Below are positions 4,717 to 36,546 of a DNA stretch of 64,000 nt, in pieces (the first letter of the stretch is position 1; every line of letters begins with the position of its first letter). This DNA comes from a virus. The stretch is from IMG/VR virus record IMGVR_UViG_3300025770_000008, positions 1 through 64,000 of that record. The stretch is one strand, 5' to 3'. A model generated the notes under the pieces. That model was not told the origin of the DNA. It was given only the letters and a program-made list of their open reading frames with translations, and searched no databases. The position numbers and the translations under genes are program-made.

Positions 4717-4992
4717 ATGCCCGACTTCACCGATGCAGACTACATTCGGCTCTTCAACGACGAAGGCTTTGTGGGGCGTCTACAGCCTTACATCGCCGAC
4801 TTCCTACTCAACCACCTGAAGGTCGACCTGAGCTACACACTCCGCGACGACGACTCTCCCGGCGGGGCGTACATACAAATCAACCCCGAGATGACTTTAG
4901 ACACCAGCATGGGCACGCGCTACCTTCCCGGTGGCGGGGTACGCATCCCGATCAGCGACATCAGCGCCCACCTCTTTCACCAGGACCGGTAA
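4717..4992 (+). CDS. Hypothetical protein, 91 residues
   Basis: An acidic soluble protein (MPDFTDADYIRLFNDEGF) followed by a beta-rich half. Its TAA stop overlaps the ATG of the next gene (TAATG). No family recognised. Confidence 0.65.
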   Translation: MPDFTDADYIRLFNDEGFVGRLQPYIADFLLNHLKVDLSYTLRDDDSPGGAYIQINPEMTLDTSMGTRYLPGGGVRIPISDISAHLFHQDR

Positions 4993-5198
4993 TGGACATT
5001 CCGCCGACCGCACTCGGGCTCGACATCGACTACAGGTACTGGGAGCGCCGTGTAATCGAGTCGCTAGGGGTGCCCTGGAACTTCTTCTTCGGGGACAGAG
5101 TGGCGAAGGTGGCGAGCTTCGGAGCCCCCGGAGGCTTCGGGAGTGCGCCCGTGCCTGCACCACCCGGCCCACCGCTCGACTACCATGTGGACGTATGA
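4992..5198 (+). CDS. Small protein with C-terminal YHVDV tag, 68 residues
   Basis: Ends LDYHVDV, one of about 18 proteins here with the His-x-Asp C-terminal motif. A Pro/Gly-rich linker (residues 44-62) separates the tag from the body, as if to expose it. The start of the next gene lies inside the last codons. Confidence 0.65.
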   Translation: MDIPPTALGLDIDYRYWERRVIESLGVPWNFFFGDRVAKVASFGAPGGFGSAPVPAPPGPPLDYHVDV

Positions 5199-5404
5199 GC
5201 GACATTGCATTCAAAGGCACCCCCAGCCGTAAGTACCGGCGCGGTAAACTCTGCAGGGTTCCCCGCGAAGTCCTTTACCCTGACGGGTCCAAGTGGACAG
5301 AGGCCAGCCGCCACGAAGTCCCCTTCACAGAAATCAGCTCCATCCGCATGAAGAAGCTACCCACGCTAGAGCCGGCGGAGCCCGAGTACCACACCGACGT
5401 CTAG
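5195..5404 (+). CDS. Small protein with C-terminal YHTDV tag, 69 residues
   Basis: Begins MSDIAFKGTPSRKYRRGK and ends EPEYHTDV. The body is basic and the tail acidic. It overlaps the upstream tagged gene by ATGA. No family recognised apart from the shared C-terminus. Confidence 0.65.
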   Translation: MSDIAFKGTPSRKYRRGKLCRVPREVLYPDGSKWTEASRHEVPFTEISSIRMKKLPTLEPAEPEYHTDV

Positions 5405-5421
5405 CCGGGGTGTACGTAAGA

Positions 5422-5455
5422 AATGGGGCTGCGCGAGTCGCGGCCCCATTCTTAG
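5422..5455. terminator. Hairpin terminator between convergent genes
   Basis: ATGGGGC-(13 bases)-GCCCCAT followed by TCTTA. It lies between a + strand unit and the 3-prime end of a - strand unit. Confidence 0.6.
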
Positions 5456-5467
5456 CTGGCACCTCGG

Positions 5468-5776
5468 TTACCCGCCGAGGCTATCCAGTATCGTCTTGGC
5501 CTCTGCCATGTCGTCGTAGTTGGGGTACTCCACCCCGAAGAGGACAAACTCCTCTTCGTCCACCACGTCCAGCTGTACCGCGCCGTCTCCGGTCAGGCCG
5601 ACACTGAGGCTGCACCAGTAGTCGGGGAACTCCTCGCTTGACGAGGAGAAGAACGCGGTATCCGCCTCGACAACGAACTTTCTGAAGACCAGTCCTATCG
5701 AGACAGCCTTAGCGTGGGCCGACCTCAGCATATCGAGCCTCTTCGTGAGCTTGTCCAGCTCCGCGAGTGGGTTCAT
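5468..5776 (-). CDS. Hypothetical protein, 102 residues
   Basis: The N-terminal half is helical and coiled-coil-like (MNPLAELDKLTKRLDMLRSA); the C-terminal half is acidic and beta-rich. Last gene of a three-gene - strand operon; its start overlaps the stop of the gene at 5773. Confidence 0.65.
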   Translation of the reverse strand: MNPLAELDKLTKRLDMLRSAHAKAVSIGLVFRKFVVEADTAFFSSSSEEFPDYWCSLSVGLTGDGAVQLDVVDEEEFVLFGVEYPNYDDMAEAKTILDSLGG

Positions 5777-5958
5777 TCCGTCTCCTCTGCGTGATGCAAC
5801 GAGTCCACCAGCTCGGCGATGAACACTTGCTCTGCCCTTGGATGCCGCCCTTTGTGGGCCAGCGGTACCTTCGCGATTAGAACCCCAGCCTCCGTTTCTG
5901 CCACGAGCTGGTCCCCGCCTTCGTGGGCACTCGCGGTATCGAACCGCAGCGTGACCAT
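5773..5958 (-). CDS. Hypothetical protein, 61 residues
   Basis: I chose the start MVTLRFDTASAHEGG because GAGAGGA lies nine bases upstream; a longer reading from 5988 is possible. The body is mostly beta. Middle gene of the - strand operon. Confidence 0.55.
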   Translation of the reverse strand: MVTLRFDTASAHEGGDQLVAETEAGVLIAKVPLAHKGRHPRAEQVFIAELVDSLHHAEETE

Positions 5959-6008
5959 CAGTCTTTTCCTCTCACTACCCCTGCGCACCTACACCCTCCG
6001 TCTTTGGC

Positions 6009-6458
6009 CTAGACATCCGTATGTACCTCATCTACCAAGCCTAGCGTAGGCTGTCTCCCGTCGGCATACGGCGGACCGACCGTAAAGAGGATTACATAGC
6101 CGCCGTCTTCCTGGGCCTCCACCGTGAAGCTCCTGCCCGTAGGCTCACACCGCCAAACGCGGGCACGCTTCGCCCACCCCGTCAGAAGGGCCTCCATCTC
6201 CTGGACCGAGCCTTGGCCCGCGGGGTTGTCGGGCGACTCACCATCTAGGCTCCCGTACTCGTCTGAGAAGTGCTCGTTCCACATCTCCGCCAAGTGCGCG
6301 CTGGTGTTTTCGACCCACTCGGCAGACACCACTAACGGTGCGTACTCCTCGACGATGTATACCAACCCTGTGACCGCGTTGACCGACTCCAGCACGTCGC
6401 TGATGGACTCTAAGTACTCCTCGAAATCGCTCAGACCGTAGCAGAACTGCTCCGCCAT
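6009..6458 (-). CDS. Tagged hypothetical protein, ends EVHTDV, 149 residues
   Basis: An acidic protein with an N-terminal helical region (FEEYLESISDVLESV) and a beta-rich end. The C-terminus EVHTDV matches the His-x-Asp tag. It is the only clear tagged protein on the - strand, so the tag is not just a by-product of + strand gene overlap. Read from the - strand promoter at 6489. Confidence 0.7.
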   Translation of the reverse strand: MAEQFCYGLSDFEEYLESISDVLESVNAVTGLVYIVEEYAPLVVSAEWVENTSAHLAEMWNEHFSDEYGSLDGESPDNPAGQGSVQEMEALLTGWAKRARVWRCEPTGRSFTVEAQEDGGYVILFTVGPPYADGRQPTLGLVDEVHTDV

Positions 6459-6469
6459 CTTGCTCCCTT

Positions 6470-6484
6470 TATTAGCCGCTAATA
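6470..6484. promoter_or_regulatory. TATTAG-CTAATA dyad operator, copy 3
   Basis: TATTAGCCGCTAATA lies between the - strand start codon at 6458 and the - strand promoter at 6489, in the untranslated leader. Confidence 0.7.
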
Positions 6485-6488
6485 CGGC

Positions 6489-6508
6489 TCACCGCCTTAT
6501 ACCGAAAA
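6489..6508 (-). promoter_or_regulatory. Phage promoter, GGTATAAG type, - strand
   Basis: The reverse strand reads CTTTTCGGTATAAGGCGGTG, matching the GGTATAAG subtype used at 31410, 38660, 40130 and 48487. It is back-to-back with a + strand promoter. Confidence 0.5.
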
Positions 6509-6509
6509 G

Positions 6510-6545
6510 ACGCAAGAGTCAGCCGCTTTTGGGCATAAGCTTCAA
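6510..6545 (+). promoter_or_regulatory. Phage promoter, GGCATAAG type
   Basis: CGCAAGAG, spacer, then CTTTTGGGCATAAGCTTCAAG. An AGCT-TCAAGT-AGCT hairpin can form right at the transcript start. Confidence 0.6.
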
Positions 6546-6578
6546 GTAGCTATTACCCCAACTGGAGGAGCCCCGCAT

Positions 6579-6779
6579 ATGAGCCTGTGGAACGCAGACG
6601 GCACGCGCTGCACCTGTGCCGACTGCCGCGACGAAGAGGACCAGTTCCAGTACGACACGTGGGACTGGGCCCAAGCACGACGGAAAACCTTCGCCGCGAA
6701 GAAGCGCGCACGGGACTACGGGGTGCCCGTTATCGTAGCCACGCAGAAACGAGAAGAGGAAATGCACGTCGATGTTTGA
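6579..6779 (+). CDS. Small Cys-rich tagged protein, ends EMHVDV, 66 residues
   Basis: An N-terminal CTCADC motif could bind metal. A basic helix (QARRKTFAAKKRARDYG) follows, then the tag EEEMHVDV. GGAGGAG precedes the ATG. The next gene starts inside the tag codons (ATGTTTGA). Confidence 0.65.
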   Translation: MSLWNADGTRCTCADCRDEEDQFQYDTWDWAQARRKTFAAKKRARDYGVPVIVATQKREEEMHVDV

Positions 6780-7062
6780 CGAGATAGTGACCGCGGCTCG
6801 AAGGGCACGGAACGCTGCGGCCAAGCAACGCAAGCAAGCCGCCCGCGAAAAGAAGGAAAGACTCGCGAAGGCCGCCGCGATTGGGGGCACCCACAAGAAG
6901 GTCCTGGTGGGCGGTTCTGAGGAGAACCACCGCGCGTGGTTGGCCCAGGTCGCGAGCGACATCCAGCGGTGCGAAGACGAACACTTCCTGGCTGTGGTCG
7001 AGGACCGCATCGAGGAAGAGGCCCGCCTCAGGGACCCCGACGCGATGCACGCGGACCGCTAG
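6772..7062 (+). CDS. Basic coiled-coil protein, ends AMHADR, 96 residues
   Basis: The N-terminal half is a highly basic helix (RRARNAAAKQRKQAAREKK) and the C-terminal half an acidic helix. The end, DPDAMHADR, looks like a degenerate tag. It starts within the tag codons of the upstream gene. Function is unknown; the basic helix could bind nucleic acid. Confidence 0.65.
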   Translation: MFDEIVTAARRARNAAAKQRKQAAREKKERLAKAAAIGGTHKKVLVGGSEENHRAWLAQVASDIQRCEDEHFLAVVEDRIEEEARLRDPDAMHADR

Positions 7063-7064
7063 GC

Positions 7065-7379
7065 ATGGACCCAAGCGTCTTTGAGCCTCTCCCAGGCCAA
7101 TGGCTATCCAGTTACACCGCCGAGGGCATAAAGTGGGCCTACAGGCTACCTGGGCTCTCCCCTGGCGAAGCTGTAGACGCTGCCCTGGTGTGGCACCACA
7201 GCCTCAGCCGTAAGCTCCCCTACGACGTAGCCATTGTGCGCCACTCCCACCGTGGCAGCCTCGTACTCATCACCACACTACTCACTGGTGTTCCATGCCC
7301 TACCCAACTCTCCGCACTTGGACCGACCCCGACCACATCACCCGCACATCCTTTATGGACGGACAACAGTGTCTCGTGA
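7065..7379 (+). CDS. Hypothetical protein, 104 residues, overlaps the next gene by 85 bases
   Basis: Begins MDPSVFEPLPGQWLSSYTAE. The coding character looks good to about residue 77 (SLVLITTLLTGVP). The last 27 residues are low in order and lie over the start of a second good frame at 7295. Either the overlap is real or a frameshift joins the two; see findings. Confidence 0.5.
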   Translation: MDPSVFEPLPGQWLSSYTAEGIKWAYRLPGLSPGEAVDAALVWHHSLSRKLPYDVAIVRHSHRGSLVLITTLLTGVPCPTQLSALGPTPTTSPAHPLWTDNSVS

Positions 7380-7435
7380 CACTCCAGCCCTGGGACCTCA
7401 TCCAGCTCGCCCGCAGTGAGCACATCGACGTATGA
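7295..7435 (+). CDS. Tagged small protein, ends EHIDV, 46 residues
   Basis: Begins MPYPTLRTWTDPDHITRTSF and ends ARSEHIDV, carrying the shared tag. It lacks a good ribosome-binding site, which fits translation coupled to, or fused with, the gene at 7065. Confidence 0.5.
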   Translation: MPYPTLRTWTDPDHITRTSFMDGQQCLVTLQPWDLIQLARSEHIDV

Positions 7436-7473
7436 ACGTAAAACGTCCACATAGACGAATAGGCCCAAAATGA
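7432..7473 (+). CDS. Possible 13-residue minigene
   Basis: MNVKRPHRRIGPK is overlapped by ATGA at both ends: its start with the stop of the tagged gene, its stop with the start of 7470. The basic peptide may act only to pass ribosomes on. Support is positional. Confidence 0.3.
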   Translation: MNVKRPHRRIGPK

Positions 7474-8054
7474 CCCTTGCTGAACTCGACTTCTTTTCCG
7501 CCCTCCGCCACAAGGACTCAATCTCCCCCGCACCGCCCGAAGAAGCGGGAAACAGCCGCACGCCTCGGAAGGCCAGGGGCGCAGGCTCAGGGAGCCTGTA
7601 CCTCCAACCAGAGCATGGTCTCTACGCCGTCTGGCACGACCAGCACCCCGAGGAGTGCGAATTCATCACGGCCGCCAACTACCTCGACGCCGTGGTCTAC
7701 GGGGAAGACTATCTGGACATCGACGAAAAACACATGCGGGTCAGCTGGGTCGCCTACACCTTCCAGGAGGTGCTCCACCCCAGTAGCGAGCTGCGTTGGA
7801 ACGCCGCCATCTCGGCCATCAACGGCGGACCCACCGACCCCGACGAACCCGAGCGAGCCCGCGCTGGCTGCCTCATCCTCAACGTCGAACTCGACGAGTT
7901 CGATGACAACGACGGCTTTGGCTGGGTCTGGAGCGTCACGGGCGCGACAGAGCGCGATGGGTACAGCGGGACCAAAGAAGGTGCCAAGGCCCTCGCTGAG
8001 CGCGCGGCCAAGGCGTGGCTCAACAACTCCCTCAGCGTCTTCCCGTCGACATGA
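7470..8054 (+). CDS. Hypothetical protein, 194 residues
   Basis: After a disordered N-terminus (residues 1-45) comes an ordered acidic domain with WxxY/F-rich segments (GLYAVWHDQHPEECEF, RVSWVAYTFQEV). No family recognised. Its stop overlaps the next start (ATGA). Confidence 0.65.
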   Translation: MTLAELDFFSALRHKDSISPAPPEEAGNSRTPRKARGAGSGSLYLQPEHGLYAVWHDQHPEECEFITAANYLDAVVYGEDYLDIDEKHMRVSWVAYTFQEVLHPSSELRWNAAISAINGGPTDPDEPERARAGCLILNVELDEFDDNDGFGWVWSVTGATERDGYSGTKEGAKALAERAAKAWLNNSLSVFPST

Positions 8055-8461: not shown

Positions 8462-8670
8462 GCAACAAGAACCAAACCCCCGAGATGCAGCGGGTGACTG
8501 CCGAGGCGGCCAAGGCCGCGTTCGAGGGCAACACCCCCGCCAAGGCCGAGGCCACAGAGACCTGCGTCCGGTGCAGTGGCCCCGCGACCGAATTCAAAGA
8601 CGAACTCTCCAAGCGGGAGTACGCCATCACCCGCTTCTGCCAGGAGTGCCAGGACGGCTATTTCGGCTGA
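8458..8670 (+). CDS. Zinc-binding protein with two CxxC pairs, 70 residues, GTG start
   Basis: CVRCSGPATEF and CQECQDGYFG form two CxxC knuckles about 27 residues apart, a small treble-clef or ribbon-like metal site. GTG overlaps the upstream TGA (GTGA). Function is unknown. Confidence 0.65.
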   Translation: MSNKNQTPEMQRVTAEAAKAAFEGNTPAKAEATETCVRCSGPATEFKDELSKREYAITRFCQECQDGYFG

Positions 8671-8834: not shown

Positions 8835-8872
8835 TGCAAAAGCGGTAGTGCTTTTGGGGATAAGAACTATGC
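8835..8872 (+). promoter_or_regulatory. Phage promoter with conserved leader
   Basis: TGCAAAAGC, spacer, then CTTTTGGGGATAAGAACTATG. The leader carries GGGC-AATTAC-GCCC and GCAGC-TGA-GCTGC hairpins before AAGGAG. The same leader design recurs at 13733 and 29891. Confidence 0.75.
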
Positions 8873-8928
8873 ATAGGGGCAATTACGCCCATTTCATCCA
8901 CGCAGCTGAGCTGCAGAAGGAGTCAACT

Positions 8929-9900
8929 ATGCCGGCCATTATCGTTCGCGTGACGAACTCGCCCGAGCAGGTCCGCAAGTTCGTAGCGCAGGGCTTCTGC
9001 CCTGTGGAGTGTTCCATCGGCGGGGAGTCCATCACGGACGACCTGCAAATGGACCACCACGGGGCGCTCTCCCACCTGGAGAGCGTCGCTCTCCGCGCCT
9101 ACCGCGACCACTACGGCGCGCGGCGCGAGGACCCACGCTTCGTCATCGTCGGGCAGCCCGACGCGGACGCGACCTTCGCGGTCGCGTCTCTCGCGGGAAT
9201 CCTCCCGCACCCGCAGGCGGACGTCTCCGCCCTGCCGCCCCACCTCCACCGGGGCGCGCAGAAGGACCTGACCGAGTTGGCGGCGCTCATCGCGAAGGTG
9301 GACACGGACCCCATCGGGTGGGACCTGTCCGAAGAGGAGGGCGGCGACGTCGTCCTCACGTGGAACGCCCTGACCGCGGGCGCCCCGCAGACCTCGCTGT
9401 CCGGCGAGATGGGGGTGGGCCTGTGGAAGCAGCTGGTATCGGGTCACCCGGCCCACCGGCCGCTGCTGGCGGCGGGCCTCACCACCGAGGCTGCGCGGCG
9501 GGAGGCGGCAGCGGCAGAGGACGTCCGTCAGGACCATGCCATCGGGTTCGTCGAGGCGTCCCGAACCTGGGGCTTCGATGTCTGGTACTCCCGGCTGCAG
9601 GGGACGGGCTCGGCGAACGAGGCGAAGGGCTGGCTGCGCCCGGTGGTCATCGCTCGGGTCGCGGCGACCAGTGGCATCACCGTTGGTTGCCCCAACGAGG
9701 CGGTCGCGGAGGAGATGTTCGGCCCAGGCGGCCTCAAGAACGTCTTCGAGGCGTTGGGCGAGGTCACCAACGCCCCGGGCTGGGGTGGTCGCGAGGCCAT
9801 CGGTGGTGGGCCGCGCGGCGTGGAGCTGAGCATCGAGCAGCTCCACGCCGCGGTGAAGCTGCTGCGGGACCTCTACGCCGAGCAGCGCCTCGCCCGCTGA
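8929..9900 (+). CDS. Putative DHH-like phosphoesterase, 323 residues
   Basis: Residues about 38-45 read DDLQMDHHG, and about 30 residues on QPDADATFAVASL resembles the metal-binding D-x-D-(G/A)-x-x-(S/A) motif of DHH-family phosphoesterases. The order (DHH first) is unusual and the GGH motif of the DHHA1 domain is not obvious, although GGGPRG occurs near residue 295. If it is a member it is divergent or permuted; hydrolase activity is inference. AAGGAG precedes the ATG at 8929. Single-gene unit with a strong leader, so probably highly expressed. Confidence 0.6.
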   Translation: MPAIIVRVTNSPEQVRKFVAQGFCPVECSIGGESITDDLQMDHHGALSHLESVALRAYRDHYGARREDPRFVIVGQPDADATFAVASLAGILPHPQADVSALPPHLHRGAQKDLTELAALIAKVDTDPIGWDLSEEEGGDVVLTWNALTAGAPQTSLSGEMGVGLWKQLVSGHPAHRPLLAAGLTTEAARREAAAAEDVRQDHAIGFVEASRTWGFDVWYSRLQGTGSANEAKGWLRPVVIARVAATSGITVGCPNEAVAEEMFGPGGLKNVFEALGEVTNAPGWGGREAIGGGPRGVELSIEQLHAAVKLLRDLYAEQRLAR

Positions 9901-10664: not shown

Positions 10665-11180
10665 ATGCGTGCACTCGTTTATCTGTTCATCCTCGCTGGG
10701 ATTCAGGGCTGCGATGCCCCGGAGCCCGGTCTGCCCGGCGTGACCGAGCGGACCTTTTTGGTCAAGAACGTCGGGCAGGCGTTGACCCAACCCCAACTGA
10801 GCATCGTCACCGGTATCCCCGGCTCGACGAGCCCGGCGCCTGTCGAGTACATCGACGAGGCGTACAAGTGGGGGATGGACAGGATCCTCCCCCAGAAGGG
10901 CAGCCCGGACGACATCGCGCTCGTCGTCGGCTGGAATGAGCTACCGGGGACCAAGGTCGCCTTCACCAACAAGGGTGAGGGGGTCGTCATCCAAACCCCG
11001 GTCGGGGGAGCGTCGACCAACGACGTCCACGTGCCCACGGAGGAGGGGCGCTACATCCCGGGGCAGCGTCTCCATGTCGAGGGGTACATCCCGCAGGAAA
11101 TCACCCACGAGCAGCTGATGGCGCTCAAGGCCGACATCGCGGCGCTGAGTGAAGCCATAACCGAGGGGTACGTACCGTGA
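10665..11180 (+). CDS. Putative lipoprotein, 171 residues
   Basis: The N-terminus MRALVYLFILAGIQGC is a short lipoprotein signal with lipobox LAGIQGC-like cleavage before Cys16, predicting a lipid-anchored periplasmic or outer-membrane protein. The mature part is beta-rich with an acidic helical tail. AAGGAGG precedes the ATG. Its stop overlaps the GTG of the next, also exported, gene. Phage lipoproteins often block superinfection at the envelope; that role is inference. Confidence 0.7.
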   Translation: MRALVYLFILAGIQGCDAPEPGLPGVTERTFLVKNVGQALTQPQLSIVTGIPGSTSPAPVEYIDEAYKWGMDRILPQKGSPDDIALVVGWNELPGTKVAFTNKGEGVVIQTPVGGASTNDVHVPTEEGRYIPGQRLHVEGYIPQEITHEQLMALKADIAALSEAITEGYVP

Positions 11181-12883
11181 GGCTGCTCACGCTTCTCTTC
11201 CTCGCGGGCTGCTGCGGGAACGGGTTGGAGTACAGCGTCAACGGGGGCGCGTGCATGCCCGCCCCTGGAGCGGGGGAGTTTCGTGGTGACCAAGGGGACA
11301 TCTGCGACCCCCGCCTCGCGCACAGCGAGGTCGAGGCCGACCCCTTGGTGGCTGGCTACGGCTGGAAGGTGGTGACCCGAGCGGGTGACTGCCGCGGCTC
11401 GTGCACCGCCGTTACAGGGCGGTTCCGGTCTTGGGTGCAGAACACCCGAGTTGGTCTGGTGGACATCCCCATCCTGACCCACAGCTTCTCGTGCACGGTG
11501 CTGGATGCAGCGCCAGACGAGGGGGACCTGGGCAACATCTTGCCCGTGTGCGCCGAGGAGAACGAGTACGTCATCCTCGAAGGCGAGGGCGGGGTCATCC
11601 TCTACCCGGAGGCGTGCTTGGAGTTCCCCCTTGGCCAGTGCCCTGCTGGTGTTGGGGCTCCCGTGGGTAACGTCGGTGCGTGCGCGCTCCAGCGTTGTGC
11701 CGACATCAACACGTTCGACCTCGGTCCCGGGGCGGCGTGTGGTGACGGGGGCATCAACATCGCCGCGGGTGGTGAGGATGGCGGCATGCCTGCTGTGGCC
11801 GAGATGGAGGAGGCCGTCTCGTGTGAGGAGGCGAAGGACGTGGCTTACGCCGCGGCCCTCAACAACCTGCCTGGGGACGTTGGGCAGCGAGCGGGGTCGT
11901 TCCTCTACAGCATCATGTACGAGGGCGACCGCATCGACCGCGAGGGTGACCCCAACGCAGCCCTCTTGGCGTGGCGCGAGTTCGAGATATTCGCGTGCGA
12001 CCTGCTCATCATCCTCAACAACCCTGAGCTGCCCGGCTCGGGGAACGTCTTCTGCTCGAACGCCGGGGGCAATCCCCGTGTGCCCCTCTACAGGACGCAA
12101 GCCACCGACATGGTGGTCCCGCCCGCGCTGTGGAGACGGATGCTGCTCGAAGGCGAAGACATGGACCCCGATACCGCCGTGGTCCACCTGCCTGCTGGGC
12201 GGCGTCGATACGCCGATGGGCTCGTCCGAGACCGAGGGCCTTGGCCGGATGCACGCGGAATCCTCTGCGAGCATGACCGGGGCTGGGACTCGTGGAACGA
12301 GATTATCGAGATGAAGTACACGACGCCGACCTTCGACCCCTCGGAGTGGTGCCTCGAAATCGACATCAACGACGCCGATGACCTGCGTCGGGGCATGTGG
12401 GCGTGTGAGCGCTGGTACGGTCGGGCTACCCAAGCCCAGGACTACCTCGCGCACGCGCTCGTGGAAACCACCGCAGGGCGGCACACGGACGTGGAGTACT
12501 GGTTCGGGCGAGGCCCTTCCGACGACTTCGCCCTTCTCATCGGCGCTCTCCCCGAGCAGTTTGCCCACCCAGAATTCGGGCGGCTTATGAACACGCCGAA
12601 AATCATCCCCATCCCGGGGCTGAACGAGATACCCGTCTACTTCGCTGACCGCATGGTCGGGGCGGGTGAACGGGGCTTGCTGCACCCGCCCATCGAGCTG
12701 GGGCTGCAAGGAGGCGACCTGGGTGACCTCATCGGTCGCGAGCTGGACCGGCGCATCTGGCCCGAGATGGCTGCCGACGAGGCCATCACGAACTTCAACA
12801 AGCAGTGGCGGTGTGGGGCTCCTGGCTCCCGACCGGACATCCGTAATTGTGCGGACTACCACTTCGACCTCTGGACGCTATAG
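11177..12883 (+). CDS. Large Cys-rich putative lipoprotein, 568 residues, GTG start
   Basis: Begins MRLLTLLFLAGCCGNG, a lipobox-type signal with Cys at 12-13. The mature protein has about 20 Cys (for example DCRGSCTAV, CAEENE, CALQRCAD), consistent with disulphides in an oxidising compartment. Many Trp/Tyr-rich segments occur in the C-terminal half (DSWNEIIEMKY, WACERWYG). No family recognised. It is the largest gene of region 1 and sits in a three-gene exported-protein operon. Confidence 0.7.
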   Translation: MRLLTLLFLAGCCGNGLEYSVNGGACMPAPGAGEFRGDQGDICDPRLAHSEVEADPLVAGYGWKVVTRAGDCRGSCTAVTGRFRSWVQNTRVGLVDIPILTHSFSCTVLDAAPDEGDLGNILPVCAEENEYVILEGEGGVILYPEACLEFPLGQCPAGVGAPVGNVGACALQRCADINTFDLGPGAACGDGGINIAAGGEDGGMPAVAEMEEAVSCEEAKDVAYAAALNNLPGDVGQRAGSFLYSIMYEGDRIDREGDPNAALLAWREFEIFACDLLIILNNPELPGSGNVFCSNAGGNPRVPLYRTQATDMVVPPALWRRMLLEGEDMDPDTAVVHLPAGRRRYADGLVRDRGPWPDARGILCEHDRGWDSWNEIIEMKYTTPTFDPSEWCLEIDINDADDLRRGMWACERWYGRATQAQDYLAHALVETTAGRHTDVEYWFGRGPSDDFALLIGALPEQFAHPEFGRLMNTPKIIPIPGLNEIPVYFADRMVGAGERGLLHPPIELGLQGGDLGDLIGRELDRRIWPEMAADEAITNFNKQWRCGAPGSRPDIRNCADYHFDLWTL

Positions 12884-13732: not shown

Positions 13733-13772
13733 CTGCAAAACACGGGGTGTTTTTAGGGATAAGAACTATGAA
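13733..13772 (+). promoter_or_regulatory. Phage promoter with conserved leader
   Basis: TGCAAAACACG, spacer, then TTTTTAGGGATAAGAACTATG. The leader repeats that at 8835: GGGC-AATTAC-GCCC, then GCAGC-ATT-GCTGC, then AAGGAG. Confidence 0.75.
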
Positions 13773-13827
13773 CAGGGGCAATTACGCCCATTTCATCCAC
13801 GCAGCATTGCTGCAGAAGGAGTCTTCT

Positions 13828-14256
13828 ATGAACGGTCACACGACCAACCGAATCGTCCGCGCCGCCCTGGCTCTGGAGGCGGCGGAGGCGCTCGCCGAGC
13901 AGGCGAGCGCCGCCATCATCGACGCGGAGGACGAGGCGAAGTTCGCCCGCGCGGAGCTGCGCGAGGCGGAAGAGGAGGCGGAGGAGGAGGCGCGAATCGC
14001 CACCTCCTCCGTCCAGGACGCCCTGCGCGGCCTCTTGGCCGCGCACGGCGTCGAGGATGTCCGGCTCGCCGGGCAAATCTCGGCCGAACTGGCGCAGACG
14101 CTCACAAGCGTCGTCGCCGCGCAGGACCTCTCGCCGCTGGGTACGGGGGGGTGGAGCGACGCCAGCCTCACGCTGGCGGGGGCGCTCGCCGGCGTGCGCC
14201 GCAAGGCGTCGCGGCGCTGGGGGGCGTGGTCATCGGGAGGCAAACGCTTCACATGA
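13828..14256 (+). CDS. Coiled-coil protein, 142 residues
   Basis: Residues about 10-70 are an Ala/Glu heptad-rich helix (EDEAKFARAELREAEEEAEE), followed by a small helical domain and an Arg/Lys-rich tail. AAGGAG precedes the ATG. It is coupled by ATGA to a 40-residue Arg-rich peptide. Function is unknown. Confidence 0.65.
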   Translation: MNGHTTNRIVRAALALEAAEALAEQASAAIIDAEDEAKFARAELREAEEEAEEEARIATSSVQDALRGLLAAHGVEDVRLAGQISAELAQTLTSVVAAQDLSPLGTGGWSDASLTLAGALAGVRRKASRRWGAWSSGGKRFT

Positions 14257-19060: not shown

Positions 19061-19099
19061 CCGCAAGGCTTGGGGTGCTTTTTGGCATAAGAACTATGA
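19061..19099 (+). promoter_or_regulatory. Phage promoter, GGCATAAGAACTATG type
   Basis: CGCAAGGC, spacer, then CTTTTTGGCATAAGAACTATGAA; a CTCGC-CCCAT-GCGAG hairpin lies in the leader. Confidence 0.75.
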
Positions 19100-19183
19100 A
19101 CCCTGAGTTCGCACCTTCTCGCCCCATGCGAGGGGGCCAACACCACGCACATCTGCCCAACTACTTACCCAGGAGAGCAATTA

Positions 19184-19633
19184 ATGGGACTTCCCGACCA
19201 CGCATTCGAGGTATTCGACAAGGGCAATCCTCGCGAGCGCAAATGCGGTGACGACCTCACCGACGAGGACATCCAAGACCTCTACACTTACTACATGAGC
19301 GGGCGCCGCTGGGACTTCAAGGACAAGCCCTACGTCGTCGAGTGGCACGAGGACAAGCCGCACCAAGTCATGATGCGCGTCTTTTGCCGGCTGTGGCGGG
19401 CCGAGCACCCCCAGCTCCCCGAGCAAAGCGCCGTCAGGGCAGACATCAAGGCGAGCACCCTCGGCCTCGGCAAGCACGTTAGCGTGCTGTACGGGGTGGG
19501 CGGGGCGTACGAGGGCGGGGATAATGAAGCTCCCAATCCCGTCATTCAGTCCACGCTCACGTACTGGTACCTGAAGGGCAAGGCGGACGCGCTGGTGGAG
19601 GCCGCACTCCCGCAGGAGCACACGGATGTCTGA
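19184..19633 (+). CDS. Tagged hypothetical protein, ends QEHTDV, 149 residues
   Basis: An acidic N-terminal domain (LTDEDIQDLYTYYMSGRRWD), a central helix (VFCRLWRAEHPQL) and a C-terminal helix before QEHTDV, a member of the His-x-Asp tag set. AGGAGAG precedes the ATG. The next gene starts inside the tag codons. Confidence 0.65.
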   Translation: MGLPDHAFEVFDKGNPRERKCGDDLTDEDIQDLYTYYMSGRRWDFKDKPYVVEWHEDKPHQVMMRVFCRLWRAEHPQLPEQSAVRADIKASTLGLGKHVSVLYGVGGAYEGGDNEAPNPVIQSTLTYWYLKGKADALVEAALPQEHTDV

Positions 19634-19787
19634 GCCGGCCGGTGAAGAGCGGGAGACGTGCCCAGCTTGCGGCTCCGACGACATAGACCTCCCAGACCCG
19701 CCCGGCTGCGGCCACGAGGCGTACTGCAACACGTGCGGGCACGAGTGGGACTGGGAAGGGGACCAACATGAGTGCGATGACGTCTGA
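19626..19787 (+). CDS. Zinc-ribbon protein, 53 residues
   Basis: CPACGSDD and CNTCGHEW are two CxxC knuckles about 26 residues apart with an intervening CGH, typical of a zinc ribbon. Ends QHECDDV, a distant version of the C-terminal tag. It overlaps the tagged genes on both sides. Confidence 0.6.
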   Translation: MSEPAGEERETCPACGSDDIDLPDPPGCGHEAYCNTCGHEWDWEGDQHECDDV

Positions 19788-20082
19788 GGAGCTGTTCAAC
19801 CGGGGCGTAAGGGATGGTGACTGGGACGATGAGCGTGAAGAGCGCGCCATCGCAATCAGCGAGTACCTCAACGAGCTGGACATGGTCCTCGGCGATTACC
19901 CGGATGACTGCTCCTCGGACATCCTCGAAGCAATCGACAATATGTGCGGCGGCTACGTCATGGAGGACTTCAGCCTGGACCCTCAGAGCGTCCAGGACTC
20001 CACCGGCCGCTGGTTCCAGCACGCGGGGCACATCCCGAAGGCGCCAACCGGTGCAGACGACGAAATGCACGTAGACATCTAA
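19768..20082 (+). CDS. Tagged acidic protein, ends EMHVDI, 104 residues
   Basis: Highly acidic, helical N-terminal half (DDEREERAIAISEYLNELDM) and a flexible Pro/Gly segment before DDEMHVDI. Starts within the preceding zinc-ribbon gene. No family recognised. Confidence 0.65.
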   Translation: MSAMTSEELFNRGVRDGDWDDEREERAIAISEYLNELDMVLGDYPDDCSSDILEAIDNMCGGYVMEDFSLDPQSVQDSTGRWFQHAGHIPKAPTGADDEMHVDI

Positions 20083-22793: not shown

Positions 22794-23018
22794 ATGGCTT
22801 ACGGCAGCAACTTCCCCGAATGGGCGAAGTTCATGGACGAGTTCCTGGTGCGAGAGCGCACCCAGGTGCTACGGGATGACGTCCTTCCCCTCATTTCCGC
22901 GGGTGGCGGGGGGAAGGACACCGTCGACCTCAAGATCAAGAGTTGGCTACAAGGCGGGTACGAGCCGGTCGTCTTGGCCACAGAGCCCGCAGACCAAGAG
23001 ATGCATTTCGACGAGTAA
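22794..23018 (+). CDS. Tagged small protein, ends EMHFDE, 74 residues
   Basis: MAYGSNFPEWAKFMDEFLVR begins a helical domain; a GGGGKDT loop and a WLQGGYEPVV strand follow. Ends DQEMHFDE, one residue past the usual tag pattern. Three bases after the previous stop. Confidence 0.6.
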   Translation: MAYGSNFPEWAKFMDEFLVRERTQVLRDDVLPLISAGGGGKDTVDLKIKSWLQGGYEPVVLATEPADQEMHFDE

Positions 23019-23331: not shown

Positions 23332-23369
23332 TGCAAAACACGTGGCCGTTTTGGGGATAAGAACTATGG
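23332..23369 (+). promoter_or_regulatory. Phage promoter, GGGATAAGAACTATG type
   Basis: TGCAAAACACG, spacer, then GTTTTGGGGATAAGAACTATGG. Confidence 0.75.
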
Positions 23370-23401
23370 ACAGACAACCTACTTAACCGAAGGAGTTCGA
23401 C

Positions 23402-24043: not shown

Positions 24044-24325
24044 ATGGACGACGATGGTCGAATCCCCTACGACGACGGTGAAGAAGAGTTGTTTCCCTTC
24101 ATCGGGGGCCCCGACAACGCCACCGTCTCTCAACGCCTCTACACCGCCTTCATAGCCTGCGACCACGGAGACGAATGCCCGCTCTGCGAGGCCGGCACTG
24201 TGTCGCTCTCCGACCTCGGGGTACTTACCTGTCGCGGCGAGTGCGGCTACGACCACGTCCGCATCGACGCCGGCCCCAAGCCGTGGCCTCGCCCCAAGCC
24301 CGAAGAGATGCATGTCGACTATTAG
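24044..24325 (+). CDS. Tagged zinc-ribbon protein, ends EMHVDY, 93 residues
   Basis: CPLCEAGT and CRGECGYDH form a zinc ribbon (about residues 47-72) after an acidic N-terminus. A Pro-rich linker (GPKPWPRPKPEE) precedes MHVDY; the final Tyr codon and TAG stop are part of the dyad at 24320. AGGAG precedes the ATG. Confidence 0.7.
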   Translation: MDDDGRIPYDDGEEELFPFIGGPDNATVSQRLYTAFIACDHGDECPLCEAGTVSLSDLGVLTCRGECGYDHVRIDAGPKPWPRPKPEEMHVDY

Positions 24326-24831: not shown

Positions 24832-25133
24832 GTAAACCGACACCTGAAGAGATGCTGACCGCCCTCCGCACCATCAGGCGGAGCGTGGGTCATTCCGACC
24901 CCGACTTGGGCATCGTGGCAGCGCGGATTGGCGTGTACTTGCGGAGCAGGGCAGGGTCGGATGGCCGTCTGCACCTCCTGTACGAAACGTGCCTTGCCGG
25001 CGGCTACCTCCCTCAAGCCAGCAGCGCCCCTGCCTGCTCATGCGGCCAACCCGCCATCAGCGGGGGCTACTGCGGTAACTGCTGGGATGGAGGGGGAGGG
25101 CCTTCTGGGTCCATCGGGGGGATGCCGGGATGA
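24828..25133 (+). CDS. Zinc-binding protein, 101 residues
   Basis: A helical N-terminus (TPEEMLTALRTIRRSVG) and a C-terminal CSC-x8-GYCGNC cluster followed by a Gly-rich tail. ATGA overlap with the OGFr-like gene and with the 22-codon gene after it. Confidence 0.6.
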   Translation: MSKPTPEEMLTALRTIRRSVGHSDPDLGIVAARIGVYLRSRAGSDGRLHLLYETCLAGGYLPQASSAPACSCGQPAISGGYCGNCWDGGGGPSGSIGGMPG

Positions 25134-25198
25134 CTGACCCTGACCTCGTATTCGCACGTCGAGCCGTAGCGTGCGCCGAATACCACATCGATATCTAG
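25130..25198 (+). CDS. 22-residue tagged peptide, ends EYHIDI
   Basis: The peptide is MTDPDLVFARRAVACAEYHIDI: a short helix plus the His-x-Asp tag and nothing else. The start overlaps the upstream stop (ATGA); the next gene follows within 8 bases. It may show the minimum functional form of the tag. Confidence 0.5.
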   Translation: MTDPDLVFARRAVACAEYHIDI

Positions 25199-29890: not shown

Positions 29891-29930
29891 TGCAAACCCG
29901 CTAGTGCTTTTTGGGATAAGAACTATGAAC
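29891..29930 (+). promoter_or_regulatory. Phage promoter with conserved leader
   Basis: TGCAAACCCG, spacer, then CTTTTTGGGATAAGAACTATG. Leader with a GGGGGC-ATCTAC-GCC hairpin and GCAGC-GTT-GCTGC, as at 8835 and 13733. Confidence 0.75.
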
Positions 29931-31483: not shown

Positions 31484-31707
31484 GTGAAGAAGGGTGACAT
31501 CGTCGAGCACAGGGAGCGGCAGTACGACAACAGTGGCAACGGCGTGAGGGGGAGCTGCTTTACAAAAACTCCGGCAACGCCACCTACTGGAGAGTCCGCA
31601 TCATCGGCCTCAGTTGGCACCAAGAGGACTGGTGGTGCTCCAGTGCCTTCACCGTCGTTAGCTCCGCCGCTGTTACGACCCCGCCCCAATACCACGAGGA
31701 CATTTGA
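31484..31707 (+). CDS. Tagged barrel-like protein, copy 1, frame broken at a G run
   Basis: GTG start and the first 23 codons (MKKGDIVEHRERQYDNSG) match the next two paralogues. In-frame reading then becomes Pro/Ser-rich. A -1 shift at the five-G run 31548-31552 restores the family sequence (TYWRVRIIGLSWHQEDWW) and the tag PPQYHEDI with stop at 31705. It is either a programmed -1 frameshift, a base lost from the G run, or a sequencing error. Confidence 0.55.
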
Positions 31708-31718: not shown

Positions 31719-31967
31719 ATGGCTGACGGATATGCCCGCGGCGACATCGTTAAACACAACTACCGCTGCTACTCCACCGGCAGCGGCACGCCCCTTCGTG
31801 GTCTGCTGCGCTTCATCAGCAAGGACGACAGCGCTCCTGCTTGGCGTATCCAGCGCATCGACATAGACGGTGTCCACGTCGACTACTTCGAGTGGTGGTC
31901 TACCCGGGAGTTCACGTTGGCCGAAGCGCCACTTAGCGAGCGCCCCGAATTTCACGAGGACATCTGA
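31719..31967 (+). CDS. Tagged barrel-like protein, copy 2, ends EFHEDI, 82 residues
   Basis: Pattern GDIVKHNYRCYSTGSGTPLR, a WRIQRIDIDG strand, FEWWSTREFTL, then PEFHEDI. Repeated strands with G-D-x-V at the start suggest an SH3/KOW-like small beta barrel. Paralogue of 31484, 31979, 32226, 32428 and 32648. Confidence 0.65.
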   Translation: MADGYARGDIVKHNYRCYSTGSGTPLRGLLRFISKDDSAPAWRIQRIDIDGVHVDYFEWWSTREFTLAEAPLSERPEFHEDI

Positions 31968-31978: not shown

Positions 31979-32233
31979 ATGCCCCGCGACGCATTTGCAA
32001 GGAACGACATCGTCGAACACACCGAACGCTTCTACCCCGACGGCACTCCGCTCCGTGCTCGGCTGGGTTGGCAGAGCGAGAGCGCAAATCCGGGTGCTTG
32101 GCGTGTCCAGAAGCTGGGACAGAACGACGGCATCCCTGCCGACTCCTACGAGTGGTGGTACCACGGGGAGTTCGTCTTCAAGCGTGCTTGGGAGCCGCCG
32201 CCAGCCGAGCCGGAGTTTCACATCGATGTCTAG
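31979..32233 (+). CDS. Tagged barrel-like protein, copy 3, ends EFHIDV, 84 residues
   Basis: NDIVEHTERFYPDGTPLRAR, AWRVQKLGQNDG, YEWWYHGEFVF, then EPEFHIDV: the same order of elements as copy 2. AAAGGAG precedes the ATG. The next gene starts inside the tag (GATGTCTAG). Confidence 0.65.
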   Translation: MPRDAFARNDIVEHTERFYPDGTPLRARLGWQSESANPGAWRVQKLGQNDGIPADSYEWWYHGEFVFKRAWEPPPAEPEFHIDV

Positions 32234-32435
32234 CTTCACGACCGGACAACGTGTCCGCCGACCCAGGCACGTTGACCCCAGCACCTACCGATACGGCACG
32301 CTGTCACACTCCCGCTGGAGTGAAGTAGGCCAAGAGGTCACTTGGCTGGTGTTACTCGAACCTACGGGCCGTGAAACGTGGTGGTACCAATCCCGCTTCG
32401 AGGTTTGCCCCGACGAGTACCACGTCGATGTCTAA
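32226..32435 (+). CDS. Tagged barrel-like protein, copy 4, ends EYHVDV, 69 residues
   Basis: GQRVRRPRHVDPSTYRYGTL, TWLVLLEPTG, TWWYQSRFEVCP, then DEYHVDV. It overlaps both neighbours through the tag codons. More divergent from copies 2 and 3. Confidence 0.65.
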   Translation: MSSFTTGQRVRRPRHVDPSTYRYGTLSHSRWSEVGQEVTWLVLLEPTGRETWWYQSRFEVCPDEYHVDV

Positions 32436-32640
32436 TCCCAAGCCGGGAGACCGGGCCCACCGCAAAGACATGTTCAAACGCCCACAGGAAGCCACGCTGG
32501 TTTCCGCCCACTACAGCGCAGCGGTCGGCATGACCGTTTGGCGAGTCAATCTGGACTCAGGAATGATCTCGTGGTGGAACGAGGGCGACTTTGAAGTGCG
32601 CCCCGGGTTTCTGCACCTCGATTACCACGTAGACGTATAG
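32428..32640 (+). CDS. Tagged barrel-like protein, copy 5, ends DYHVDV, 70 residues
   Basis: GDRAHRKDMFKRPQEATLVS, WRVNLDSGMISWWNEGDFEV, then LHLDYHVDV. It keeps the R-V-x-L and WW-x-x-G-x-F elements of the family. Confidence 0.65.
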   Translation: MSNPKPGDRAHRKDMFKRPQEATLVSAHYSAAVGMTVWRVNLDSGMISWWNEGDFEVRPGFLHLDYHVDV

Positions 32641-32647: not shown

Positions 32648-32764
32648 ATGCCCAGCGAATACAACAACGGCGACCGGGTCGTCCACCGCCGCAAAGTGTA
32701 CCCAGCAACCACCAGCCCCTACGAAGCCGTCTTGCTCTCCGCCGACTACCACATGGACGTCTGA
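32648..32764 (+). CDS. Tagged barrel-like protein, truncated copy 6, ends DYHMDV, 38 residues
   Basis: MPSEYNNGDRVVHRRKVYPA, then a short strand and SADYHMDV. It keeps the first strand pair and the tag but lacks the middle of the family. TAGGAGG precedes the ATG, so it is probably translated. Confidence 0.55.
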   Translation: MPSEYNNGDRVVHRRKVYPATTSPYEAVLLSADYHMDV

Positions 32765-32782: not shown

Positions 32783-32793
32783 GGGAGAAACGA

Positions 32794-33523: not shown

Positions 33524-34107
33524 CAATCATCATTCAGGCGGCGGGTGAGCAGGCCGACGCGGCTCACGAAGCGAACATGAAAAAGCATCTTCGGCGTGAG
33601 GCCGAGCGGTGGGTGGGTGAGGGCATGGTCGACCGTATCGAGGTTAACCCCATTCCGACCCTGACCGCTGACGACAAGCTGGTCGAAGCGGCTGAGGCGG
33701 TCCGACAGGCGTTGATAAGCGGAGACACCCTGGAAGAGCTTGAGGTGGCCTACCCCGACTTCGCCGAGTTGGTGAAAGAGGTCGCCGAGGTTGCCAGCAT
33801 GGCCCTCACGCAACACGGCATGGTCGACCGTATCTGCGCCGACTGCGGCGCCGACGCCACGTCCGGCGGGGAGGTCACCACTGGTCCGGTAGTTGCTATC
33901 TCTTGGACCGTCGAAGACATCACGGATGTCTACGATCTCAGTGATGAGGACGCCGAGGCGTTCCTCCAGAGCGCCAAGTCTGCGCTGCAAGACCGCAGCG
34001 TTAGCCTCGGGTGGGACGTGCTGGAGGACTGTGCGCGAGAGCAGGAGATCCGGCGCTGTGACGAGATCTCCGAAGACGACAACGACGCCACGAAAGAGAG
34101 GACCTGA
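33514..34107 (+). CDS. Hypothetical protein, 197 residues
   Basis: ATG 33514 follows AAAGGAGG. Mostly helical and acidic, with one CADCGAD site. Its stop (TGA) overlaps the next ATG. No family recognised. Confidence 0.65.
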   Translation: MALTIIIQAAGEQADAAHEANMKKHLRREAERWVGEGMVDRIEVNPIPTLTADDKLVEAAEAVRQALISGDTLEELEVAYPDFAELVKEVAEVASMALTQHGMVDRICADCGADATSGGEVTTGPVVAISWTVEDITDVYDLSDEDAEAFLQSAKSALQDRSVSLGWDVLEDCAREQEIRRCDEISEDDNDATKERT

Positions 34108-34328
34108 TGGGTCAGCGCGTCCGTATCCGGCTCTCCGCATTCACCAGGGTGGAGTTCGTCAAAGAGGTGGAGGTCGACGACGCCACCGCCAACAACCCGC
34201 AGGCCCTTCAAGACCTCGCCCAGCGGGTGTGGGATGAGACCGACGGCGGGGAGTTCTTCGATGACACGGACTACTGGGAGAAGGGATCGATCAGGGCCGA
34301 GGTCATGGAGGAGGGTGAGGATCTGTGA
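34107..34328 (+). CDS. Hypothetical protein, 73 residues
   Basis: MGQRVRIRLSAFTRVEFVKE begins a small alpha/beta protein ending MEEGEDL. Coupled to both neighbours by 1-4 base overlaps. Confidence 0.6.
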   Translation: MGQRVRIRLSAFTRVEFVKEVEVDDATANNPQALQDLAQRVWDETDGGEFFDDTDYWEKGSIRAEVMEEGEDL

Positions 34329-34636
34329 GCTACTTCAACAAGACCGGGCGAACGGGCGAGTGGTACGTCACAGGGGACTGCAACCCCTACGACTACGAAG
34401 AGGAAGCCGCCGTCGCCGACGCCGACTTCTGGACGGACCCGGAGGGGTACGTCGCCGGCCACGCCACTGAGTACGACGCTCCCGTACCTGAGCTGCGGGA
34501 ACCTCCAGGCAGGGTGCCCCACCCCATCATCAAGGCGGTCAACCGGTTGACCGCTCGGGCTGACGCAGACGCCGCCGATGGTGGTGACGACAGCGATGGC
34601 GGGCACCGGGTGGTGCGTGTTGGAGAGGGCCAATGA
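34325..34636 (+). CDS. Hypothetical acidic protein, 103 residues, GTG start
   Basis: Tyr/Asp-rich N-terminus (YVTGDCNPYDYEEEAAVADA) and a disordered Asp/Gly-rich tail. Overlaps on both sides. Confidence 0.55.
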   Translation: MSYFNKTGRTGEWYVTGDCNPYDYEEEAAVADADFWTDPEGYVAGHATEYDAPVPELREPPGRVPHPIIKAVNRLTARADADAADGGDDSDGGHRVVRVGEGQ

Positions 34637-35103
34637 AGTACCCCCGGAACCGCAAGCTGCTCGACTTCCACACCGCCGAAAACGCCTTCATCAACCACGT
34701 CACCGTCGAAGAGCCATTAGAGGTAGACGGCGACGTGGCGCCCGTCTTCGATGTCCCCATCCCCCGAGACGTTGAGACCGATGACGTCGAAGCGCTCGCC
34801 ATCAAGCTGATGCACGTCGCCGACGACATGCGCCCAGCCTGCGTGATGCTCTCGCTGAGCACGGGCCACATGCCGAGCAACGACCCCGACTTCGGGGACC
34901 TACGAACCATTGAGAGCACGGGGAAGCTGGGCAGCTACGGCTACCTCGTGTTCGTCCAGGTACTGGAGGCGGATGAGTTGGGCGAGCATTTGCCTGAGTG
35001 GCTCATCCCCGTGTGGAAGATGGCCCTCGAATGCGGTGCCCGCCTCATCGAGTTCGACCGCGACGAGAACGTCTACGACCACCTGCCGAAATACGAGTGG
35101 TGA
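34633..35103 (+). CDS. Hypothetical protein, 156 residues
   Basis: Acidic alpha/beta protein beginning MKYPRNRKLLDFHTAENAFI, with an amphipathic helix (EALAIKLMHVADDMRP). No family recognised. ATGA overlap upstream. Confidence 0.6.
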   Translation: MKYPRNRKLLDFHTAENAFINHVTVEEPLEVDGDVAPVFDVPIPRDVETDDVEALAIKLMHVADDMRPACVMLSLSTGHMPSNDPDFGDLRTIESTGKLGSYGYLVFVQVLEADELGEHLPEWLIPVWKMALECGARLIEFDRDENVYDHLPKYEW

Positions 35104-35104
35104 C

Positions 35105-35140
35105 ATGACGCGATGGTTGGGCTCGACCAATGCGCGGTAG
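35105..35140 (+). CDS. Possible 11-residue minigene
   Basis: MTRWLGSTNAR starts two bases after the upstream stop, and its last codons overlap the start of the zinc-ribbon gene at 35130. It may only carry ribosomes across the junction. Confidence 0.3.
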   Translation: MTRWLGSTNAR

Positions 35141-35288
35141 CGTATTCACCAAGTGCAGGTGCCCCAAATGCCACCGCGAGCAGCGCACAGGCTTCAGCAC
35201 TGACCCGAAAAACCAGTACTTCAAGCCAATCTGCCGCTACTGCGGGAAGGGCACCTTGGTACCCGCGGAGAAGTTGAAGTTGAAGTAG
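35130..35288 (+). CDS. Zinc-ribbon protein, 52 residues
   Basis: CRCPKCHRE and CRYCGKG give two Cys knuckles about 28 residues apart in a very basic protein ending EKLKLK. This is a typical small nucleic-acid-binding ribbon. Too short for most gene callers. Confidence 0.6.
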   Translation: MRGSVFTKCRCPKCHREQRTGFSTDPKNQYFKPICRYCGKGTLVPAEKLKLK

Positions 35289-35309
35289 GAAAGAAGCAAG
35301 GAATACGTA

Positions 35310-35537
35310 ATGGCTACTCCGCCCAAGTTCAGCAGAAGCACCTACAAGCGGGGGCCTCTCGTCATCCACGCTCGAACCGACGAGGGTGCCAGTGCCTGCA
35401 ACAAGACCCTGGACGTCCACGACTCTCACGTCCCCGCCGAACGGGTGGGCCCTGAATACATTTGCCTCCGCCAGCCCTGCAACCGCCTCTGGCGAGAAGA
35501 GCTTGAGCGGCTAGACCAAGAGGAAGAGAAGTCATGA
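35310..35537 (+). CDS. Hypothetical protein, 75 residues
   Basis: Basic N-terminus (FSRSTYKRGPLVIHARTDEG), two Cys (CNKT, CLRQPC) and an acidic coiled end (EELERLDQEEEKS). ATGA overlap with the next gene. Confidence 0.6.
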   Translation: MATPPKFSRSTYKRGPLVIHARTDEGASACNKTLDVHDSHVPAERVGPEYICLRQPCNRLWREELERLDQEEEKS

Positions 35538-36040
35538 GCAACATCGGAGAAGACGTCTACGAGGAGCTGCTCGGCCCTGAAGACGACCTACCCGAGGTCC
35601 AGGTCAGCACGGCGCCCGAGCAGGAGCCGCAGAAGGAGGCCCGCTCCATCTACTACCGGATGCTCCTCATTGGCTGGGACGGGCTCAACAAAGAGCTACG
35701 CAACCTCACTCGTGAGATGGGGGGCTATTACGCCGGTCACAGCGGTAGCAAGCTCTGCAGACTCTGCAGAACATCACCAACTCAGCAGCACCGCTCGACC
35801 TGCCCCCTCCTAATCGTTGACCGCGCGCGGCGGGCCGTCGACCGCGCCATCCAGGAGCGGGAGCCCTTCTACAAGGAGTACGCGGTCCTGCAGACAGTCG
35901 TCAACGACGTGTGGCAGAACGACGCACCGAACTGTGTCGCCTGCGGGGGTGCGCAGGGGACCTGCCGACCCCCTTGCGCCCTGGTCCAGATGACCGGAGC
36001 CTTGAAGCGCTTCCGCCACTTCTTCGAGGCAAGGGGATGA
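35534..36040 (+). CDS. Zinc-site protein, 168 residues
   Basis: CRLCRTSPTQQHRSTCP and CVACGGAQGTCRPPC are two Cys-rich clusters (about residues 75-92 and 133-148) separated by a long helix. An acidic disordered N-terminus precedes them. This may be a two-site zinc fold. ATGA overlap downstream. Confidence 0.65.
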   Translation: MSNIGEDVYEELLGPEDDLPEVQVSTAPEQEPQKEARSIYYRMLLIGWDGLNKELRNLTREMGGYYAGHSGSKLCRLCRTSPTQQHRSTCPLLIVDRARRAVDRAIQEREPFYKEYAVLQTVVNDVWQNDAPNCVACGGAQGTCRPPCALVQMTGALKRFRHFFEARG

Positions 36041-36546
36041 GCCTCCTGCCAGCCCTTACACCCATAGACACCCCGGTGGGTTACTACGACAGCGCGCATA
36101 CCCCTGCACCCACGGCCTTCACCGCCTGGGTGGAGGTCGATGGGCCGGACTCCCTCCAGCCTTCCATACACCCCGCACACACCGCCCCGCGGATGTTGCT
36201 CTTCCCTGATGCGTCCGACTCCAGTATCCCCCGCGTCTTTGCTCGTGTCGTGCTCGACACCTACGGTGACCAGGGGTACACCCTCGCCCTTGACAAGGGC
36301 GAACGTGTCCAGATGACTGATGGGGTGTGGTTCCATATGGTGGAGGGCTCGGACCTTATGGCCCGTATCCCGCTAGTGATGGGCCGCGAAGCGCCCACGT
36401 ACCGCGCCTACCTCCACGCCGCCGATGAGGCTGATGACCACCCCCACCATCCGCATCCGCTAGGCCCTTGGCGACTGGTCCTCCCCACCAAAACCGTCAC
36501 GAAGCCCGAGAAAGAGGGCGCCGACGAGATGCATCAGGATTATTAG
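36037..36546 (+). CDS. Tagged protein, ends EMHQDY, 169 residues
   Basis: Beta-rich protein with a His-rich loop (DDHPHHPHPLGP) near residue 145 and a charged linker before EMHQDY. The terminal Tyr codon and stop come from the dyad at 36541. No family recognised. Confidence 0.65.
   Translation: MSLLPALTPIDTPVGYYDSAHTPAPTAFTAWVEVDGPDSLQPSIHPAHTAPRMLLFPDASDSSIPRVFARVVLDTYGDQGYTLALDKGERVQMTDGVWFHMVEGSDLMARIPLVMGREAPTYRAYLHAADEADDHPHHPHPLGPWRLVLPTKTVTKPEKEGADEMHQDY

Follow-up and report, generated by a model that had tools for sequence, protein, structure and literature searches.

A short C-terminal tag on small, mostly unrelated proteins of a 143-kb phage genome: a candidate docking signal

The subject of this study is a short C-terminal tag with a core of histidine at position −4 and aspartate at position −2, which recurs on small proteins encoded in bases 1–64000 of the IMG/VR virus record IMGVR_UViG_3300025770_000008. 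This stretch of 64,000 nucleotides is referred to as the window, and the rest of the 142,974-base record, a phage genome of about 143 kb, was analysed together with it. A gene caller based on codon usage yielded 189 genes, the ends of which are set by stop codons, while errors in the start sites are likely. Genes of tailed phages are present in the genome, namely a terminase, a match to a head maturation protease, a DNA polymerase, a DnaB-like helicase and a UvsX-like recombinase. The tails were rated with a position-specific score built from 21 of them, in which H and D were required and positions −6, −5, −3 and −1 were not.

The first tagged genes of the window are 4992..5198 (+; 68 amino acids (aa), tail PPLDYHVDV, score 18.6) and 5195..5404 (+; 69 aa, EPEYHTDV, 21.8), the second of which starts within the tag of the first (GTATGA). 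They are followed by 6009..6458 on the minus strand (149 aa, VDEVHTDV, 18.4), the cysteine-containing 6579..6779 (+; 66 aa, EEEMHVDV, 21.9), 6772..7062 (+; 96 aa), the divergent tail of which (PDAMHADR) had been listed as a weak case in a preliminary description of the window and is, with a score of 12.4, a real member, and the open reading frame (ORF) 7295..7435 (+; 46 aa, ARSEHIDV, 14.5). At 7435–7462 two tags lie in one frame with stops between them (HIDV-stop-T-stop-NVHIDE-stop). Further along are 19184..19633 (+; 149 aa, LPQEHTDV, 17.7), for which single-sequence fold prediction was useless (predicted local distance difference test, pLDDT, 38), the acidic 19768..20082 (+; 104 aa, DDEMHVDI, 22.1), 22794..23018 (+; 74 aa, DQEMHFDE, 17.3), the Cys-rich and, by eye, zinc-ribbon-like 24044..24325 (+; 93 aa, PEEMHVDY, 20.9), the 22-aa ORF 25130..25198 (+; end CAEYHIDI), which is probably a gene remnant, and 36037..36546 (+; 169 aa, ADEMHQDY, 19.9). 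The ends of 24044..24325 and 36037..36546 overlap the palindromes TATTAGCCGCTAATA and TATTAGCGGCTAATA, respectively.

Between 31484 and 32764 the tag is carried by a family of related genes, all on the plus strand, referred to here as the barrel family: 31719..31967 (RPEFHEDI), 31979..32233 (EPEFHIDV), 32226..32435 (PDEYHVDV), which starts within the preceding tag, 32428..32640 (HLDYHVDV) and the truncated 32648..32764 (38 aa, SADYHMDV). The first member, 31484..31707 (PPQYHEDI), had been described as an end in a −1 frame; it is a barrel gene frameshifted upstream of its tag (start GTG at 31484, tag frame open from 31498). The truncated and the frameshifted copy, which may be functional genes or recent remnants, have both retained the tag. 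AlphaFold2 applied to six aligned family members predicted a five-stranded barrel with an overall pLDDT of 81, the strands lying within residues 10–70, mostly at high confidence, and the tag tail lying outside the fold with a pLDDT of about 61–67; the product of 31979..32233 is predicted to form such a barrel, SH3-like and of five strands, with its tail at low confidence. Matches of the fold are of the general SH3/chromo/Tudor-like kind and weak, none having an E-value under 0.001. Apart from this family, the bodies of the tagged proteins are unrelated according to BLAST, as had been noted from the sequence at the outset. With a median of 83 aa, the tagged called genes are shorter than the untagged genes of the regions in which they lie (median 131 aa); their products, mostly acidic to neutral (median pI 5.2), show no clear membrane segment.

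The pattern search of the full proteome proposed in the preliminary description found H-x-D-x at the exact C-terminus of 20 of the 189 called genes, where 0.26 would be expected, and 13 genes ending in H-x-D-[VI], where 0.03 would be expected; the Poisson tail for the pair of H at −4 and D at −2 is near 10^-28. The longer motif [EDQ][YMFV]H.D[VIYE] occurs 12 times at the C-terminus and never internally in the called genes, which goes against the possibility, raised at the same time, of a similar rate at internal sites. Across the six frames of the window, H.D.-stop was found 20 times, 19 of these in plus-strand frames, for which the frequencies of HxD and of stops give an expectation of about 2. 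Chance or composition as the origin of the tag is ruled out by the C-terminal counts against expectation and by the pair statistic. Eighteen tagged called genes score between 12.4 and 22.1 and all other genes at most 5.3, a gap that is descriptive only, because the score was built from the very tails that it rates. The FHQDR end at 4992 (score 3.7) is not a member, and the HEDK end of the UvsX-like protein was rejected as a tag, as its score of 5.3 is too low and its homologue in the related phage G010 ends otherwise.

All ends listed in the preliminary description, which had counted about 18 proteins, were found in their places, and three more tagged genes outside the window, at 119.2–120.3 kb (ends at 119499, 119734 and 120305 of the record), bring the total to about 21 C-terminal tails on mostly unrelated small proteins. 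Of the motif form given there, [E/D][Y/M/F]HxD[V/I/Y], the core of H at −4 and D at −2 is without exception among the tagged ends, whereas E/D at −6 and Y/M/F at −5 turned out to be strong preferences, with the exceptions EEHIDE, SEHIDV, QEHTDV, DEVHTDV and PQYHEDI. The six-residue consensus is [E/D]-[Y/M]-H-x-D-[V/I]-COOH. Common terminal residues are thus found on unrelated proteins above chance, with the full motif absent from internal positions, as in C-terminal docking short linear motifs in general.

At the level of DNA the tags vary. In 23 tails, His is encoded by 17 CAC and 6 CAT codons and Asp by 14 GAC and 9 GAT codons, the last Val by GTC, GTA and GTT with GTG absent, and the stop codon is TAG in 10, TGA in 9 and TAA in 4 cases; no column is conserved in the 30 bases 3′ of the tags. 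GAT is over-used (9/23 vs 16% genome-wide), and part of the codon choice is explained by GATG, in which the GAT codon of several tags gives the ATG of an overlapping next gene. The tag had also been considered as a possible DNA site for start-stop overlap, which was rejected, as there is no nucleotide-level conservation and such overlap is not enriched (6/20 tagged vs 22/68 untagged genes, Fisher p = 1). Since synonymous codons, stops and downstream DNA are free and the overlap is not enriched, selection acts on the protein. The tag is genuine, strongly selected and lineage-specific.

The distribution of H-x-D-x ends along the genome is uneven, with 16 of 75 genes at 1–37 kb (15 without FHQDR), 0 of 89 at 37–119 kb and 4 of 14 at 119–127 kb (3 without the UvsX-like protein, those at 119–120 kb being above the score gap). 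Tagged genes are confined to the accessory and replication regions, and none lies in the late structural block. A promoter-like repeat, TGCAAAAC-N18-GG[GC]ATAAGAACTATG, has 14 plus-strand copies in the window (83–118, 1651–1686, 8838–8873, 13737–13772, 19065–19100, 23335–23370, 29894–29929 and others); it ranges over 0.1–30 kb and occurs at 128 kb, with weaker copies as far as 48 kb, at 104 kb and at 127 kb, precedes some tagged genes (19084, 23981) and is nearly absent from the late region. From these repeats we infer that the tagged genes are expressed early. A 97-base leader with hairpin-like stretches and an ATG at its end is present in two copies of 86% identity (window 8835–8931 and 13734–13830) and is a candidate for a shared 5′ untranslated region. 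The palindrome TATTAGCSGCTAATA has about 20 exact copies genome-wide, and over 10 near ones, within and between genes (for example at window 59, 4477, 6470, 8673, 23316, 24320, 32768, 36541, 48432, 55537 and 60722), and resembles a site used as operator, stoperator or for partition; overlap with it may explain the Tyr end of the tags at 24325 and 36546.

An operon-like run at window 51036–60258 contains a weak Prok-JAB match and genes for a ThiF/E1-like protein, a ParB-like protein, an FtsH/CDC48-like AAA ATPase, a RecA-like protein and an NrdG-like radical SAM protein. Its JAB/ThiF genes (51–53 kb) were considered as readers of the tag, but no link is claimed, as G010, a relative without the tag, likewise shows ThiF and weak JAB matches. 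Within the run, GACCACAANNTTGTGGTC is repeated five times (54124–54146, 54194–54216, 55326–55348, 55396–55418 and 55471–55493), around the gene 54245–55327 and a short way upstream of the ParB-like gene 55657–56958, an array that looks centromere-like. Elsewhere in the genome, a large insertion resembling an intein lies in the terminase large subunit, and HNH endonucleases are matched inside the DNA polymerase (genome 83237–86107 and 116415–119183).

Homologues of the tagged proteins were found neither in 50,697 phage records and 72,556 plasmid records nor in three IMG/VR scans, the queries of which came from the tagged region of the window and included two tagged proteins. The matches to the exact tag patterns that turned up in IMG/VR and in 84,980 prokaryote genomes all look like chance, and 1.65 Mb of fetched loci, mostly from terminase-related phages, yielded only chance-like ones in stop-broken frames. 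Close relatives consist solely of identical contigs, which cover only the tags at 119–120 kb. A terminase alignment reached more distant phages with 40–43% identical terminase; the relatives G005–G012 have syntenic structural genes in common with this phage, G006 and G010 also replication genes, and their terminase, protease and other head and tail proteins are 40–48% identical. The tag is absent from all of them, and no substitute C-terminal tag rises above background, the best C-terminal residue pair reaching 10^-6 in G006 and 10^-4 in G010 as opposed to 10^-28 here. A convincing homologue of a tagged body is also missing from these relatives, in which the sole match comprises 28 residues of the 4992 protein (E = 4e-4). 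As far as the searched collections show, the tag and its carriers appear to be private to this lineage, and no precedent for the motif was found in the open-access literature with narrow search terms.

In the reading that we favour, which we rate as about evenly balanced between right and wrong, the six C-terminal residues are a lineage-specific docking signal for one receptor that recognises them together with the free carboxylate and thereby recruits small proteins. The fixed terminal distance in 21 tails, the unrelated bodies and the flexible tail suggest that a free C-terminus is read by one receptor. The short signal [E/D]-[Y/M]-H-x-D-[V/I]-COOH would sit on a flexible tail and be bound by a single receptor, encoded by the phage lineage or the host, so that, during infection, a changing set of small soluble proteins would be gathered at one machine or one site of the cell. 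Different activities would come from the bodies, among them SH3-like barrels and Cys-rich domains, and the address from the tag. The conserved head and tail proteins seem less likely to include the receptor, since relatives possess them but not the tag; a host protein, or a phage protein specific to this lineage, is the more likely candidate. The idea of the preliminary description that one partner recognises the tag is thus favoured, also by the selection on the protein and by the place of the tail outside the barrel fold; any of the functions that it listed, sorting, packaging, assembly or degradation, may apply.

Several observations weigh against the docking signal. Imperfect tag-like strings, ADYHFDLWTL and DDMHMEYSGVWK, stand 3 and 5 residues before the C-terminus of two proteins (window 11177–12883 and genome 135570–136304) and are two of the three best internal profile matches, so that dependence on the carboxylate may not be strict. 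Among 74 window proteins only three Pfam families came up, none of them an obvious peptide-binding domain, and no receptor emerged. Homologues of the tagged proteins, in which conservation of the tag across species would show, are absent from the searched collections, and the one basis for early expression is the promoter-like repeat upstream of some tagged genes. Finally, the sequence does not separate a recruiting function from a degron.

A C-terminal degron ranks second and is considered unlikely. Here an AAA+ protease of the host or phage would read the tail, either to remove early proteins on schedule, following the logic of ssrA, or to receive host proteins delivered by tagged adaptors, following that of the SspB tail. 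The exact C-terminal position, the small early-type proteins and the flexible tail fit this, and the phage encodes an FtsH/CDC48-like AAA ATPase (56974–58581), in which a Pfam scan shows no protease domain. The tail of the tag, with its acidic residues, His, Asp and Val/Ile, is unlike the known ClpXP degrons, of which LAA is an example. A model for the degron-like or adaptor reading is SspB, which docks on the zinc-binding domain of the AAA+ unfoldase ClpX via its C-terminal tail; the XB peptide of SspB is functional at any position, unlike the strictly terminal tag (PMC12373786).

Somewhat less probable again is a signal for virion packaging or ejection, by which tagged accessory proteins would be packed into the head and leave it along with the DNA like the internal proteins of T4. 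Among phages, the best precedent for a short terminal peptide on variable accessory proteins is the capsid targeting sequence of T4 (PMC9026906), and rapidly changing accessory bodies would fit, but the T4 signal stands at the N-terminus and is cut off, and proteins related to the T4 internal proteins are called basic (PMC9026906), unlike the acidic to neutral tagged proteins. Assembly and packaging are somewhat further weakened: all structural genes are without the tag, the late genes have hardly any of the promoter-like repeats of the tagged region, and the relatives lack the tag although their head machinery is conserved. An action of the tail in cis on its own translation, by stalling or inefficient termination that couples neighbouring genes, is very improbable: the ATG of the next gene lies within several tags and GAT is over-used at Asp, but overlap is no commoner after tagged genes, several of these have no close downstream gene, and all three stop codons are used. 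More improbable still is that the tails have no function and are left over from a single 3′ gene end that was duplicated again and again: duplication did give rise to the barrel cluster, but outside it the bodies are unrelated, the DNA around the tag is unconserved, and H and D are invariant through synonymous divergence.

The docking signal therefore remains ahead of the degron and of packaging. A more far-reaching form of it, a private C-terminal address code that plugs about 20 interchangeable early proteins into one hub of host or phage, possibly a protease or unfoldase, is offered tentatively and with more doubt than belief; new host-takeover activities could then be added simply by gaining the tail. 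The small early proteins of phages mostly lack both a known function and homologues. A common tail would place about 20 of them in one functional class and show how a phage draws newly acquired proteins into an existing pathway, and if the receptor were a host machine, a host hub exploited by the phage would be identified.

Among known systems, PTS1 (SKL) and HDEL/KDEL are 3–4-residue C-terminal signals on unrelated proteins, read together with the carboxylate by one receptor. They resemble the tag in this placement and differ in their sequences, in serving eukaryotic organelle sorting and in that their receptor is known. The ssrA tag is added by tmRNA; like the XB tail of SspB it is a C-terminal tail recognised by an AAA+ machine, and both differ in sequence from the phage tag, which ends in H-x-D-[VIYER] and not in LAA or another known Clp C-degron. 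The T4 capsid targeting sequence, 10 N-terminal residues removed by the prohead protease gp21 from carriers found in the virion (PMC9026906), is likewise a short terminal peptide on small variable phage accessory proteins addressed to one place, whereas the phage tag is C-terminal (−6 to −1) and has no structural context. The C-terminal tip of SSB, carried by one protein and bound by many partners (PMC10164576), shares the acidic flexible tail and a hydrophobic end with a free carboxylate that recruits partners. That tip belongs to an OB-fold ssDNA-binding protein and reads DDDIPF, in which none of the about 20 mostly unrelated tagged proteins ends, and here there are many carriers and presumably one reader; a scan of ten proteins gave no Pfam family apart from one non-significant match. 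The tag works like the known C-terminal address tags and is set apart from each of those named by its sequence or its position.

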